Positions 49,120 through 58,028 of a DNA stretch of 64,000 nt are shown in pieces; the stretch's first letter is position 1; each line of letters begins with the position of its first letter. This stretch comes from Candidatus Deferrimicrobiaceae bacterium (GTDB lineage: Bacteria > Desulfobacterota > Deferrimicrobia > Deferrimicrobiales > Deferrimicrobiaceae). The stretch covers positions 201,302-265,301 of the forward strand of contig DASXVV010000013.1 of assembly GCA_036504035.1 (NCBI GenBank). The letters are read 5' to 3'. The notes beneath the pieces were generated by a model. It saw nothing but the letters and a program-made list of their open reading frames with translations. It was not told the DNA's origin and ran no database searches. The position numbers and the translations under genes were made by a program.

Positions 49120-49193
49120 TGGGGAATGGTGAAATGGAATCACACGTGGCTCTGACCCACGTATTCCAGGTTCGAACCCTGGTTCCCCAGCCA
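49120..49193 (+). tRNA. tRNA-Gln (anticodon CUG)
   Basis: 74 nt with encoded CCA. Acceptor TGGGGAA/TTCCCCA; anticodon stem CGTGG/CCACG with loop CTCTGAC, so anticodon CTG; T arm CCAGG-TTCGAAC-CCTGG. The D arm is short (GTG/CAC). The U1-A72 pair and loop fit tRNA-Gln. Confidence 0.95.
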
Positions 49194-49197
49194 ATGC

Positions 49198-49273
49198 GGT
49201 CCCATCGTCTAGTGGCCCAGGACGCCGCCCTCTCACGGCGGAGACGGGGATTCGAACTCCCCTGGGACCGCCA
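49198..49273 (+). tRNA. tRNA-Glu (anticodon CUC)
   Basis: 76 nt with encoded CCA. Acceptor GGTCCCA/TGGGACC; anticodon stem CCGCC/GGCGG with loop CTCTCAC, so anticodon CTC; T arm GGGGA-TTCGAAC-TCCCC. 4 nt after tRNA-Gln, so both come from one precursor. Confidence 0.96.
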
Positions 49274-51207: not shown

Positions 51208-51248
51208 CAAAAAAGCGACGCCCCGGAAACAGCCCGGGGCATCGCTTT
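51208..51248 (-). terminator. Intrinsic terminator of the OFA transporter operon
   Basis: Stem AAAGCGA-C-GCCCCGG against CCGGGGC-A-TCGCTTT with one mismatch and a short loop, followed on the minus strand by a run of six or more U. It lies 50 bp after the transporter stop and also fills most of the 137-bp gap before the TMTC-like gene, where nothing else is seen. Confidence 0.9.
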
Positions 51249-53799: not shown

Positions 53800-54207
53800 C
53801 TATTCCTTGTGGGTGGTCCAGAACATGGAAACCGCGTTGGCTGCGAAAATGCCATAGAGCCACATGGTGTTCCAGGCCGGGCCGGACCAATGGCTTCCCT
53901 TGCCGGCGCCGACGACGCCAGAGGCGATGACCATGCCGATGATCGCGGTGAACGATACCGTCGTCACGGCGCGAAGGATCTGGTTGTTCCGCCAGGTGTG
54001 GCGTTCCATCTCCTCGATCCGCTCGACGACCGACTCGTTGTACTGCTGGCGCCACTGCTCGATCAGGAGCTGGGTATCCTCGAGCGAATAAGAGACCTTT
54101 TCATCGGGCTTTGCCACCTTGAGGTTGTTCTTGCGCGCATCTTCCGCCCCGATCTCCTCAACCTGCTGAAGCTTTTCGGCGGTCGCTTTCATGTCCCGGA
54201 TGCTCAT
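53800..54207 (-). CDS. Small membrane protein with N-terminal helical domain, unknown
   Basis: 135 residues: a charged, probably helical N-terminal half (to about 77; YSLEDTQLLIEQWRQQYNESVVERIEEMERHTW), then two membrane helices (about 81-100, 113-130). No family recognised. GGAG 8 bases before ATG 54207. It is next to the 365-residue protein (4 bp), so the two may form a complex. Confidence 0.7.
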   Translation of the reverse strand: MSIRDMKATAEKLQQVEEIGAEDARKNNLKVAKPDEKVSYSLEDTQLLIEQWRQQYNESVVERIEEMERHTWRNNQILRAVTTVSFTAIIGMVIASGVVGAGKGSHWSGPAWNTMWLYGIFAANAVSMFWTTHKE

Positions 54208-54248: not shown

Positions 54249-54443
54249 TCAAGCAGATGCGGCTGTCTTCGTTTCCGACGGGAATCGATCGGCCAGTTCC
54301 TGGTATTTCGGGCAATCGGCAAAACGGCTGCTGCAGTACCGGATGATCAGGTTCACGTCGTGGGGGAAGATGTACCCGCACCCGACGTCGCAGTAGTCTT
54401 CGTTCTTGCCGTAATAGGGACAGACCGGTTGTTGTTCGTTCAT
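54249..54443 (-). CDS. Small cysteine-rich protein, unknown
   Basis: 64 residues starting MNEQQPVCPYYGKNEDYC, with five cysteines (8, 18, 22, 37, 43) in the pattern CPYYGKNEDYCDVGCGYI...YCSSRFADC, which looks metal- or cluster-binding. First gene of the OFA operon. ATG 54443 follows the sigma54 transcription start by about 36 bases; a longer reading from 54500 would begin inside that promoter. Role unknown. Confidence 0.65.
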   Translation of the reverse strand: MNEQQPVCPYYGKNEDYCDVGCGYIFPHDVNLIIRYCSSRFADCPKYQELADRFPSETKTAASA

Positions 54444-54488
54444 GGGTTGGACTTCACCCTTTTGCGAAATGGTTACGGCAGTTGATTG

Positions 54489-54504
54489 AGCAACAGGCAT
54501 GCCA
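54489..54504 (-). promoter_or_regulatory. Sigma54 (-24/-12) promoter of the Cys-rich/OFA operon
   Basis: On the minus strand TGGCATGCCTGTTGCT. GG and GC are ten bases apart, as required, and it differs from TGGCAC-G-N4-TTGCW at one base (T for C). Transcription would start near 54478, 36 bases before the ATG of the Cys-rich gene. The next upstream gene encodes a GAFTGA-type sigma54 activator. Confidence 0.88.
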
Positions 54505-54522: not shown

Positions 54523-54623
54523 GAACCCTGTGTTTCCGGGAGGTTATGCTGAAAGGGGATTCAATGAATGAGGTGGGACGAGGAATTGATTCGCGCGGGC
54601 GCAAAATTCCGAACCCGTGTTTC
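54523..54623 (-). promoter_or_regulatory. Two copies of a candidate activator-binding sequence upstream of the sigma54 promoter
   Basis: GAACCCTGTGTTTC (54523-54536) and GAACCCGTGTTTC (54611-54623), in direct orientation and differing only by one inserted T, about 45-57 and 133-145 bases upstream of the predicted start. Each has the GAA...TTC look of an imperfect inverted repeat. Proposed binding sites for the NtrC-type regulator; inference. Apart from these elements, 54444-54650 shows no gene. Confidence 0.5.
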
Positions 54624-54650
54624 GCAGAAATGCAAAAACGAAATATGAAT

Positions 54651-56045
54651 CTATCTTTGTGCGTCGTCCTCCCGGCGGATGCCGTATTTCTTGATCTTGC
54701 GATAGATCGTCGCCATGTTCATGCCGGCTTCGCGCGCGGCGGCTTCGACGTTCCAACGATGCTTCTTCAGCAAGCCCCTCAGGTAATCCGTCTCGAAGCG
54801 GGAAAGCGCCTGCGCATATTCGCCATCTTCCGATGCCTGTTCCGGGGACTCTTCCTGCCCGATCACCGGCAATTCAATGAATTGCGCCAGGACCGGGAGT
54901 TCGATGTAGTCGGAATCCTCCATGGCAATGCACGCCTCGATCACGTTCCGCAGTTCGCGGATATTCCCGGGCCATGCGTACCCCAGGGCATGTTCCATGG
55001 CTTCCGGCGAAAGCCCGCGGATCGAGGTGCCGAATTTTCGGTTCTGCAACGCGATGAAATGGGCGGCCAGAAGCGGGATGTCCGCCTTCCGTTCCCGGAG
55101 CGGCGGCAAGTGGATGTTGAGCACGTTAAGCCGATAGTAAAGGTCCTCCCGGAATGCTCCGCTCTTGACCGAGGCCTTCAGGTCCGAATTCGTGGCGGAA
55201 ATAATCCGGACGTCGACCCGCGTCGGCTTGGTATCGCCCAGCCGGGTGAATTCCTGCTCCTGCAGGAATCGAAGCAGCGTCTTCTGGACGTTCATCGGCA
55301 GGTTGCCCGCCTCGTCGAGGAAAAGCGTCCCGCCGTCCGCCGCCTCAAGCAGCCCCTGACGGTTTTCGGCGGCGCCGGTAAACGCCCCCTTCTTGTAGCC
55401 GAACAACTCGGATTCCAGGATCGATTCGGGCAACGCCCCGCAGTTGATCGCGATGAATTTCCGGTCCTTGCGGGGAGAGTTGTAGTGGATCGCCTGCGCG
55501 ATCAATTCCTTGCCCGTCCCGGATTCGCCCGTCACGAGCACGGAGGTGTCGCGGCCTGCAATCTTCTCGACGCGCTCGAGCACCCCCTTGAGTCCATCGG
55601 AAGCGCCGATGATGTTGCCGAAGTGGAACTTGCCGACGAGCTCTTCCCGCAATTCGCGGTTCTCTTCGACCAGCTCGGTATGCTTGAGCGCATTCTTGAC
55701 CCGGTAGAGAAGCTCTTCGGGCTCGAACGGCTTGGTGAGCATGTCGTAGGCGCCCCGACGCAGCGCCTGGATCGACATCTCGACGGTCGCGTAGGCTGTG
55801 ACCATGATGACGGGAATGGACGGTTCTTTCGCCTTGACCCGCTGCAGCACCTCAAGGCCATCCATGCCGGGCATCTTGATGTCGGTGACCACGAGATCCC
55901 ACTGGCCCCGCTCGAACGCCTCGACGGCCTCGAACGAACGGGTGAAGGTCTTCGCAAAATATCCGTTGTCGAGCAGGACCGCCTCCATCATGAGGCAGAG
56001 GCCCTCCTCGTTGTCGATCAGCATCACCCGTTTATTCTGCGTCAA
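54651..56045 (-). CDS. NtrC-family sigma54-dependent response regulator
   Basis: 464 residues. Receiver domain with phospho-acceptor D55 (VVTDIKMPG), AAA+ domain with Walker A GESGTGKE (173-180), the sigma54-contacting GAFTGA loop (220-225), then a Fis-type helix-turn-helix at the C terminus (NVEAAAREAGMNMATIYRKI). Start TTG 56045 with GGGGAG 7 bases upstream. It is 12 bp after the kinase gene and presumably is its partner; the likely target is the sigma54 promoter just downstream. Confidence 0.95.
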   Translation of the reverse strand: MTQNKRVMLIDNEEGLCLMMEAVLLDNGYFAKTFTRSFEAVEAFERGQWDLVVTDIKMPGMDGLEVLQRVKAKEPSIPVIMVTAYATVEMSIQALRRGAYDMLTKPFEPEELLYRVKNALKHTELVEENRELREELVGKFHFGNIIGASDGLKGVLERVEKIAGRDTSVLVTGESGTGKELIAQAIHYNSPRKDRKFIAINCGALPESILESELFGYKKGAFTGAAENRQGLLEAADGGTLFLDEAGNLPMNVQKTLLRFLQEQEFTRLGDTKPTRVDVRIISATNSDLKASVKSGAFREDLYYRLNVLNIHLPPLRERKADIPLLAAHFIALQNRKFGTSIRGLSPEAMEHALGYAWPGNIRELRNVIEACIAMEDSDYIELPVLAQFIELPVIGQEESPEQASEDGEYAQALSRFETDYLRGLLKKHRWNVEAAAREAGMNMATIYRKIKKYGIRREDDAQR

Positions 56046-56057
56046 TACCGCTCCCCG

Positions 56058-58028
56058 CTATTGAAAGTCTTCAGGCCGGACCGGCAGCCGGATCTTTACG
56101 GTGGTGCCTTCCCCGACCTTGCTCTCGATCGTGATCCGTCCATGGTGCTGCTCGACGATTTGCCGCGTGATGGGAAGCCCCAACCCCGTACCGCTCGTCT
56201 TGGTCGTGAAAAAGGGCTCGAACATCTTATCGAGATTTTCGGCGGGAATCCCGACCCCGTTGTCCACGAACAGGATGTTGACGTATCCCTCTTCGTCCAG
56301 ATACGTCTTCACGACCAGCTTCCCCCCCGCCGGCAGTGCGGCCCCGGCATTCAGGATGAGGTTGATCGCCACCTGCCGCAACTGGTCGCCGTCCGCCATG
56401 ATCGTCGGGAGGCCGGGCGCGAACTCCTTCACGACCTTCGCGTGGTGCATGTCGGTATGGTTGGACGCGAAGTCGACGATCTGGTCGAGCAGGTCGTTGA
56501 TGTCGACTTCCTCGGGGGCGGGCTTGGGCGTTCGCGCAAAGCTGAGCAGGTTCTGGACGATCTTCTTGCAGCGCTTGCTCTCCCGCTTGATCTCGCTGAT
56601 GTATCTGTAATTGGGGTCGTCGGGCGAAAGTTTCCCCTCGATGTGGCTGGCGAATCCGAGGATGACCCCGAGCGGGTTGTTGATCTCGTGCGCCACCCCG
56701 GAGGAGAGAACGCCGAGCGACGCCATCTTCCCCTGCTGCGCGAGGTTCGCCTCCATCTCGCGATTCTGGCGGATGATGGCCGTCATCCGGTTGAAGGCCG
56801 ACGCGAGCTCGCCCAGTTCGTCGTTGGTGTCGACATTCATCCGTTCCTCGAGCCTTCCCTGCTTGACCTTGCGAATGACATCCATCATGTGTCGTATGGG
56901 ATCCGTGAACACCTTCGACGCGTAATTGACCAGGAAGGCGGAGACGAGCGCCGAGAGGATCACCAGCAGGACCATGGTTCCGAGGATCCGCCCGGAAATC
57001 TTGTTCGCCTCCCGGTAGAACTCGTCCTCGTAGGAGCCGACCGCCACGATCCAGCCCCAGGGCTCGAAATATTCGTAGCGGACGATCTTCATGCGCGGCT
57101 TGCGGTCGCTGATGTTCTTCCATGGATAGCGGATCCACCCGCTTTTTTTCGTGCACATCTCCCGGATGAACTCGTTCCCGTCGAGGTCTCTGGACCGGTA
57201 GATATTCTGGCCTTCCGCGTTCGGGTGGACGACCAGGTCCCCCTTCGTGTTCATACAATAGATGTAACCGGTGTCGCCGACTTTCTTCTTTTTGATCTTT
57301 TCCCGGAGCTCCTCGAATGAACGTCGTTCGAAGGCCGCGTCCTCGTAAGTCTCTTCGACGTATCCGCCCGCCGCGATGATCCAGTCCCATTCCCGGAAAT
57401 AGGTGTAGGCGACCACCTTTTTCCGCGGGAACTTGTCGCCCAGCATGGCGTTCCGCCAGGGATAGGTGGTGTAGAGGATCTCCCCGGGCTTCGAAAGCAG
57501 CGCCTTCTCGCACATCTCGCGGATGAAGTGGCGGCCGTTTTCGTCTTTCTCGTTGATGACGTTCTGCCCTTCCCGGGCGATATGCGCCACGAGCTTTCCC
57601 TTGCTGGTCATGGCATAGATGTAACCGGATTCGCCGACGTTGACCCGGGTCAACGCTTTCCGCGCCTCTTCCCTGGCGGCGGCCGGGCTTACCTGACCAC
57701 TCCGTGACTGGTTCTCCTCGGCCTGGACCAGGTTTCGCGAGAGGTTGACAAGAGTGGCGAGCTCCTTGTTGAAGCTGCCCTGCTTGTCCTGCTTGTAGAC
57801 CTGGAACTGCTGGTAATGGGAATTGATCAGGTCGAGGGTGAAGCTGGCCATGTGCTGCAGGTCGTCCTTGCTCGTCTGGGTGATCCCCAGGTTTGCCTGC
57901 TGGGTCGCGATGCTGCCGACGACGCCGCCAACCACAAGGATGGGGATGATCACCAGCGGCATGACCATGGCCATCATCTTCCAGCGTAATTTCAGGTTGG
58001 TCACGAAACCGGACAGTGGCCTGTGCAT
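56058..58028 (-). CDS. Membrane histidine kinase with duplicated Cache sensor
   Basis: 656 residues from ATG 58028: helix 20-42; two similar Cache modules (about 132-228 and 250-338); helix 349-369; HAMP 370-423; phospho-acceptor H447 in VAHEINNPLG; HATPase with NLILNAGAALP, VDNGVGIP and GTGLGL. The modules share GxxGYIY, EGQN, FIREMC, YPW and YFxxWxWI. Cache domains bind small ligands such as carboxylates. ATG 58070 is another start; no good ribosome-binding site is seen for either. The frame running to 59093 passes antisense through gspC and is not real. Confidence 0.93.
   Translation of the reverse strand: MHRPLSGFVTNLKLRWKMMAMVMPLVIIPILVVGGVVGSIATQQANLGITQTSKDDLQHMASFTLDLINSHYQQFQVYKQDKQGSFNKELATLVNLSRNLVQAEENQSRSGQVSPAAAREEARKALTRVNVGESGYIYAMTSKGKLVAHIAREGQNVINEKDENGRHFIREMCEKALLSKPGEILYTTYPWRNAMLGDKFPRKKVVAYTYFREWDWIIAAGGYVEETYEDAAFERRSFEELREKIKKKKVGDTGYIYCMNTKGDLVVHPNAEGQNIYRSRDLDGNEFIREMCTKKSGWIRYPWKNISDRKPRMKIVRYEYFEPWGWIVAVGSYEDEFYREANKISGRILGTMVLLVILSALVSAFLVNYASKVFTDPIRHMMDVIRKVKQGRLEERMNVDTNDELGELASAFNRMTAIIRQNREMEANLAQQGKMASLGVLSSGVAHEINNPLGVILGFASHIEGKLSPDDPNYRYISEIKRESKRCKKIVQNLLSFARTPKPAPEEVDINDLLDQIVDFASNHTDMHHAKVVKEFAPGLPTIMADGDQLRQVAINLILNAGAALPAGGKLVVKTYLDEEGYVNILFVDNGVGIPAENLDKMFEPFFTTKTSGTGLGLPITRQIVEQHHGRITIESKVGEGTTVKIRLPVRPEDFQ

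Follow-up and report, generated by a model that had tools for sequence, protein, structure and literature searches.

A sigma54 promoter with paired upstream dyads between a two-component system and a putative monocarboxylate uptake operon in Geobacter-type bacteria

Genomic organization of the locus

The window, the whole stretch of DNA analysed here, covers 64 kb of contig C13 (positions 201302-265301) in a genome of 3.17 Mb that carries rpoN in single copy. It contains an operon of four minus-strand genes (54443-51299) ending in a strong intrinsic terminator, with a sensor kinase gene and a response regulator gene upstream on the same strand. The features of the locus are as follows.

51212..51248, minus strand: intrinsic terminator, a 16-pair stem followed by a T run, directly 3' of the MFS stop codon
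51299..52669, minus strand: MFS transporter matching the SfMCT L-lactate model NF049980
52698..53795, minus strand: 365-aa polytopic membrane protein, no match in Pfam, NCBIfam or PDB sequences
53800..54207, minus strand: 135-aa protein with a hydrophobic segment, no family match
54249..54443, minus strand: Cys-rich protein of 64 aa, first gene of the operon, no family match
54489..54504, minus strand (reads 54504 to 54489): -24/-12 sigma54 promoter TGGCATGCCTGTTGCT, assigned from its consensus match and conservation
54590..54605, minus strand: proximal dyad UAS2, TTTGCGCCCGCGCGAA, centred 93 bp upstream of the promoter element
54621..54636, minus strand: distal dyad UAS1, TTTGCATTTCTGCGAA, centred 124 bp upstream of the promoter element
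54651..56045, minus strand: NtrC-type response regulator with a receiver domain, an AAA+ domain carrying GAFTGA and a Fis-type HTH
56058..58028, minus strand: sensor histidine kinase with tandem Cache modules, HAMP, HisKA and HATPase domains

The four same-strand genes and the terminator at 51248-51212 bear out the operon described in an earlier, sequence-only reading of this DNA. That reading called the operon unrecognised, a term that fits only in part, since its last gene encodes an MFS transporter of the SfMCT/L-lactate type. The carrier scores 402.7 bits against NF049980 (cut-off 320), and the SfMCT substrate residues N276, R280 and Y331 are aligned and conserved in it, so that the fourth gene is, as judged by its sequence, a recognisable lactate-type transporter. 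The term holds for the first three proteins, none of which matched a Pfam or NCBIfam model. The conserved core of the 135-aa protein is its C-terminal part of about 80 aa. The 365-aa protein, for which a longer open reading frame begins at 53855, is modelled at low confidence (pLDDT 49) with about 8 long helices. Elsewhere in the window, two tRNA genes adjoin each other at 49120-49270 on the plus strand.

The possibility that the 5' UTR holds a riboswitch or other structured leader was considered and rejected, there being no Rfam family near the operon in the window or near the leaders of eight relatives.

The sigma54 promoter and its conservation

The element TGGCATGCCTGTTGCT, of the TGGC/TGGY-N8-TTGC type, has its GG and GC 10 bases apart, matches the degenerate consensus TGGCAYRNNNNTTGCW with zero mismatches and is separated by 45 bases from the ATG at 54443. 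Sequence, strand and coordinates are as the sequence-only reading had given them, and its distance of about 46 bases to the Cys-rich gene is close to the measured one. Its count of one mismatch hinges on the consensus chosen, and its description of a near-perfect sigma54 element stands. From the general spacing of sigma54 promoters, transcription is predicted to start near 54479, about 11-12 bases 3' of the GC. The stretch from the regulator gene to the operon showed no sigma70-type site. The same 16-mer occurs, letter for letter, upstream of glnB-glnA in the same genome, and another exact consensus match lies upstream of two amtB genes. Both glnB-glnA and amtB are classical sigma54 targets. 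In Geobacter sulfurreducens the RpoN promoters of glnBA and dcuB have been mapped, and regulator genes there sometimes adjoin their targets (PMC2725144).

A motif of this kind could be a chance match in a G+C-rich genome and have no role, since 0.62 matches at no more than one mismatch are expected in a window of this size and one was found. That one match, however, has 0 mismatches. Pattern searches of the whole 3.17-Mb genome returned six exact matches to TGGCAYRNNNNTTGCW against two for the reversed pattern, and a 0-mismatch GG-N10-GC element appeared in 2 of 20,000 shuffles of the 200 bp upstream. The sequence-only reading had suggested looking at the matching position in related genomes, and had named absence of the motif from orthologous operons as its refutation. 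Such absence does not apply because 72 of 76 upstream regions of the Cys-rich gene, the window's own included, have the element at no more than one mismatch, against 0.33 in shuffles; at no more than two mismatches the number is 74 of 76. Control positions before other genes of the locus gave no element (0/77, 0/80, 0/30, 0/26 and 0/27), and the opposite strand gave one. The search itself demanded the GG and GC; the near-invariance of T0, A4 and T12 was not demanded. Among relatives of the same genus the element is kept while the intergenic DNA has otherwise largely diverged. On conservation, shuffles and control positions, a chance match was rejected statistically.

Some orthologous promoters carry further conserved sequence. 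From the -12 element onward, 24 of 74 read TGCTGTATAC (e.g. L066, L075, L040 and L063), often with the palindrome TGTATACA; these are mostly MFS-linked loci without adjacent two-component genes, and the two sequences are possibly a repressor site or a start-region preference. The promoters of L022-L043, which have no linked MFS gene, share a conserved GTTACTCCTT stretch about 10-25 bases 3' of the -12 element, in a long leader (about 100 nt) with no Rfam match. At L016, an exact sigma54 element (3993-3978, minus strand) lies just 3' of a GAFTGA response regulator gene (5457-4132) on the same strand, a candidate second regulator-target pair of the same genome.

Paired enhancer dyads upstream of the promoter

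Upstream of the orthologous promoters we found a repeated dyad, TTYGCR-N4-YGCRAA, that is absent from the sequence-only reading. Both dyads of the window are exact copies located between the regulator stop codon and the promoter, 31 bp or about three helical turns apart, and both lie within the range of about 80-200 bp upstream of a sigma54 promoter used to define an upstream activating sequence. Two of the 76 loci had no scorable promoter. In the other 74, at least one dyad at no more than one mismatch was present in all 74 (1.82 in shuffles), an exact dyad in 70 (0.09 in shuffles) and at least two dyads at no more than one mismatch in 68 (0.01 in shuffles), counts that are partly circular because the consensus came from part of these same promoters, which are also related to one another. 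The independent check on the dyad comes only from the MFS and SatP promoters and the counts in other genomes described below. That dyads precede the promoter in all 74 scored cases speaks further against a chance motif, an explanation to which we now give almost no credence. Dyads are present at orthologous promoters with or without an adjacent regulator gene.

The proximal dyads have their centres in three groups, at 80-85, 91-95 and 102-108 bp, with a spacing of about one helical turn. This grouping is only suggestive because the loci are related, and so is the phase of these dyads on the helix (distinct values giving R 0.42 at 11 bp, nominal p 0.01, several periods tried).

In the whole genome the exact dyad occurs at only seven places, two of them here. 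The other five were rejected as further dyad targets, being unpaired and having no sigma54 element of no more than one mismatch within about 2 kb. We found no description of the enhancer or regulon in the open-access literature, which is weak evidence, most subscription papers lying outside it.

A small target set in Geobacterales

We searched genomes for a composite pattern, a dyad followed after 72-102 bases by a sigma54 element, with the search blind to genes. It matched in 71 of 141 Geobacterales genomes, with 0 for the reversed control. Once duplicates were removed there were 69 distinct classifiable sites (one more stands 58 bases from the end of its contig), and all of these stand before three kinds of gene, none before any other. 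The module of Cys-rich, small membrane (TM) and 8-TM proteins follows 54 of them, a SatP/YaaH permease (PF01184) follows 9, an MFS carrier alone of the SfMCT-like lactate type follows 5, and an MFS-SatP pair follows the remaining 1. The MFS gene is detached from the module in genomes G087 and G302, at a distance of tens of kb, and is preceded there by dyads and a promoter of its own. We describe this as a small uptake regulon because in Geobacterales one type of enhancer-promoter unit would drive the module, MFS and SatP/YaaH genes from separate places.

The membrane protein was found at 80 loci in a scan of 84,980 species genomes, mostly in Geobacterales, and the nearest named contigs with the operon belong to 'Deltaproteobacteria' and Geobacteraceae assemblies. 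Within the window's own class, the composite site and the membrane protein are each confined to the three genomes of its own genus, a distribution which suggests that operon and composite site were acquired from Geobacterales.

Three genomes of one genus (G311, G312 and G314, 98-100% complete) have the 8-TM protein with no regulator at the identity used and no composite site; the module may be regulated differently there.

The response regulator and its connection to the dyad

The regulator is of the NtrC type, with a receiver, a sigma54-interaction AAA+ domain carrying GAFTGA and a Fis HTH. Its best NCBIfam model is the AtoC equivalog NF008469, at 442.2 bits and below the curated cut-off of 714. 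Counting the regulator as present at E<=1e-150, we found it in 8/8 genomes of the phylum with the membrane protein versus 10/289 without (Fisher 3e-11), and in 97/106 Geobacterales with the membrane protein versus 4/35 without (7e-19), p-values that are nominal because the genomes are related. Six of the 71 genomes with a composite site have no detected regulator, and all six are draft assemblies. In 27 of the 76 loci the two-component genes are found upstream in the same orientation, and in 8 they are nearby in another arrangement; at 39 they were not seen in the stretch examined, and the last two loci are those with no scorable promoter. The HTH end, NMATIYRKIKKY, is nearly constant in regulator orthologues, linked or unlinked, and differs in two other regulators. 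By these sequence comparisons the dyad is tied statistically to the regulator.

Promoter and dyads could still be real and be served by NtrC or another NtrC-type protein binding the dyads, the adjacent pair having other targets. The genome has many NtrC-type proteins (more than 100 first-look candidates), another GAFTGA regulator stands at L016, the promoter 16-mer is shared with glnB, a gene whose activators known from other organisms are of the NtrC type, and many orthologous loci lack adjacent two-component genes. Against this, none of the seven exact dyads is near glnB, and the regulator and module co-occur far above chance. The regulator's linkage in 27 loci and in 8 rearranged ones shows that linkage is kept despite rearrangement, and in G300, G198, G148, G033 and G221 no more than a few kb separate the dyads from the regulator gene, even though the neighbouring target is a different one. 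We therefore consider binding by some other protein quite improbable. The sequence-only reading had proposed that the adjacent two-component system drives the operon, and the two dyads, the dyads at unlinked loci and the co-occurrence of regulator and module argue for that proposal.

The sensor kinase and the proposed mechanism

The kinase core has AtoS as its best-scoring NCBIfam model, below the cut-off of 646, and this model has no match to the sensor part. For the sensor domain the nearest solved structures are 4k08 and PscD of Pseudomonas syringae (5g4y). PscD binds glycolate, acetate, propionate and pyruvate, its carboxylate contacts being Tyr90, His103, Tyr143 and Lys156, between Trp92 and Trp145 (PMC5062169). 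In every orthologue examined (36-46 sequences) each of the two Cache modules retains the pocket Tyr, His, Tyr, Trp145 and Lys, and has Tyr or Phe in place of Trp92. PscD differs in being a chemoreceptor with one Cache module, whereas here two stand in tandem on a histidine kinase. Given the pocket residues that are kept and a target set made up of carboxylate carriers, the sensor's likely ligand is a C2-C3 monocarboxylate. SfMCT of Syntrophobacter fumaroxidans transports L-lactate, not pyruvate, and shorter acids did not compete (PMC6573034); lactate is not among the reported PscD ligands, so the sensor may recognise another compound than the carrier does.

The signal itself might be another, such as a dicarboxylate or carbon/redox stress, with promoter, dyads and regulator as described and the transporters induced within another response. 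The sensor's similarity to PscD is distant and the ligand assignment rests on sequence; in Desulfovibrio vulgaris, moreover, the lactate genes are under several regulators (PMC3333781). Every regulon member of known family, however, belongs to a family of short-chain carboxylate carriers, and the carboxylate-holding residues are kept in both Cache modules, which leads us to regard a different signal as rather unlikely.

Our preferred reading, which we hold to be highly probable from the sequence comparisons, is a carboxylate-responsive two-component system dedicated to sigma54-dependent control of the operon and of monocarboxylate uptake. The promoter, the dyads, the target set, the co-occurrence and the pocket residues are shown by sequence statistics. 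The tandem Cache domains would sense a small (C2-C3) monocarboxylate outside the cytoplasm, and the kinase would then phosphorylate the AtoC/NtrC-type regulator, a phosphotransfer that we infer. The regulator would bind the two dyads about 93 and 124 bp upstream, and its GAFTGA AAA+ domain would open sigma54 holoenzyme at TGGCATGCCTGTTGCT. The four genes would be transcribed up to the intrinsic terminator, giving the Cys-rich protein, the small membrane protein, the 8-helix membrane protein and a predicted SfMCT-like proton-coupled monocarboxylate transporter.

Acetate and lactate are main electron donors of Geobacter-type bacteria, and to our knowledge their sensing and uptake there are poorly defined. 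In these bacteria the neighbouring pair seems to switch on the uptake of small organic acids resembling acetate or lactate. With sensor, regulator, exact enhancer, promoter and target set now named across an order, the question of how acetate and lactate are sensed and taken up becomes directly testable.

Relation to known systems

The mechanism belongs to a known kind, the NtrC-type two-component/sigma54 system. In D. vulgaris, lactate uptake and oxidation are controlled by the sigma54 response regulator DVU3023 and its paralogues DVU0539 and DVU0946 (PMC3333781, PMC4641369), and the present system resembles them in its NtrC-type GAFTGA regulator, its sigma54 promoters and a regulon conserved in relatives; lactate permeases are among the targets there. 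D. vulgaris belongs to a different order, and its targets are lactate permeases, TSUP/PSE-family transporters and lactate-oxidation operons (PMC3333781, PMC4641369), where here they are the SfMCT-type MFS carrier, SatP and a three-gene membrane module of no known family. The comparison covers regulator type, promoter type and targets; the D. vulgaris motifs are published as figures. Escherichia coli AtoS/AtoC gives the best models for both proteins here, with scores below the curated cut-offs as noted above.

The RpoN regulon of G. sulfurreducens has the same promoter type, with consensus TTGGCACGGTTTTTGCT (PMC2725144). Among the RpoN-dependent operons named in the main-text passages compared here there is none of the SfMCT, SatP or Cys/TM/8-TM kind, and these passages describe no TTTGCA-N4-TGCAAA enhancer; the oxalate-formate antiporter GSU2490 is given an RpoD promoter (PMC2725144).

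Operon proteins and a possible role in transport

The MFS carrier is like SfMCT (PMC6573034; 6g9x) in scoring above the NF049980 cut-off and in its conserved substrate-site Asn, Arg and Tyr. Unlike SfMCT, it is encoded in an operon with three proteins of no known family, and its substrate is predicted. The module formed by these three proteins is the main regulon target in Geobacterales, where the other members are all carboxylate carriers, and it is often found without an adjacent classical carrier. A part in transport is thus conceivable for them, and we tentatively raise the possibility, short of an even chance, that the module is an undescribed uptake or energy-coupling system for short-chain monocarboxylates. 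The three proteins could be new, and monocarboxylate uptake is a first functional setting in which to place three widespread protein families that have no curated model among those searched.

A single open reading frame spans both the Cys-rich domain and the MFS carrier in G300 (L132, 6823-5036, minus strand) and in G198 (L133, 10642-8987, minus strand); it adjoins the regulator genes and has dyads nearby. The starts of these frames come from a crude ORF finder, and the two tblastn matches fall in the same frame with no stop between them; this arrangement is possibly a fusion, which would link the Cys-rich protein to transport.
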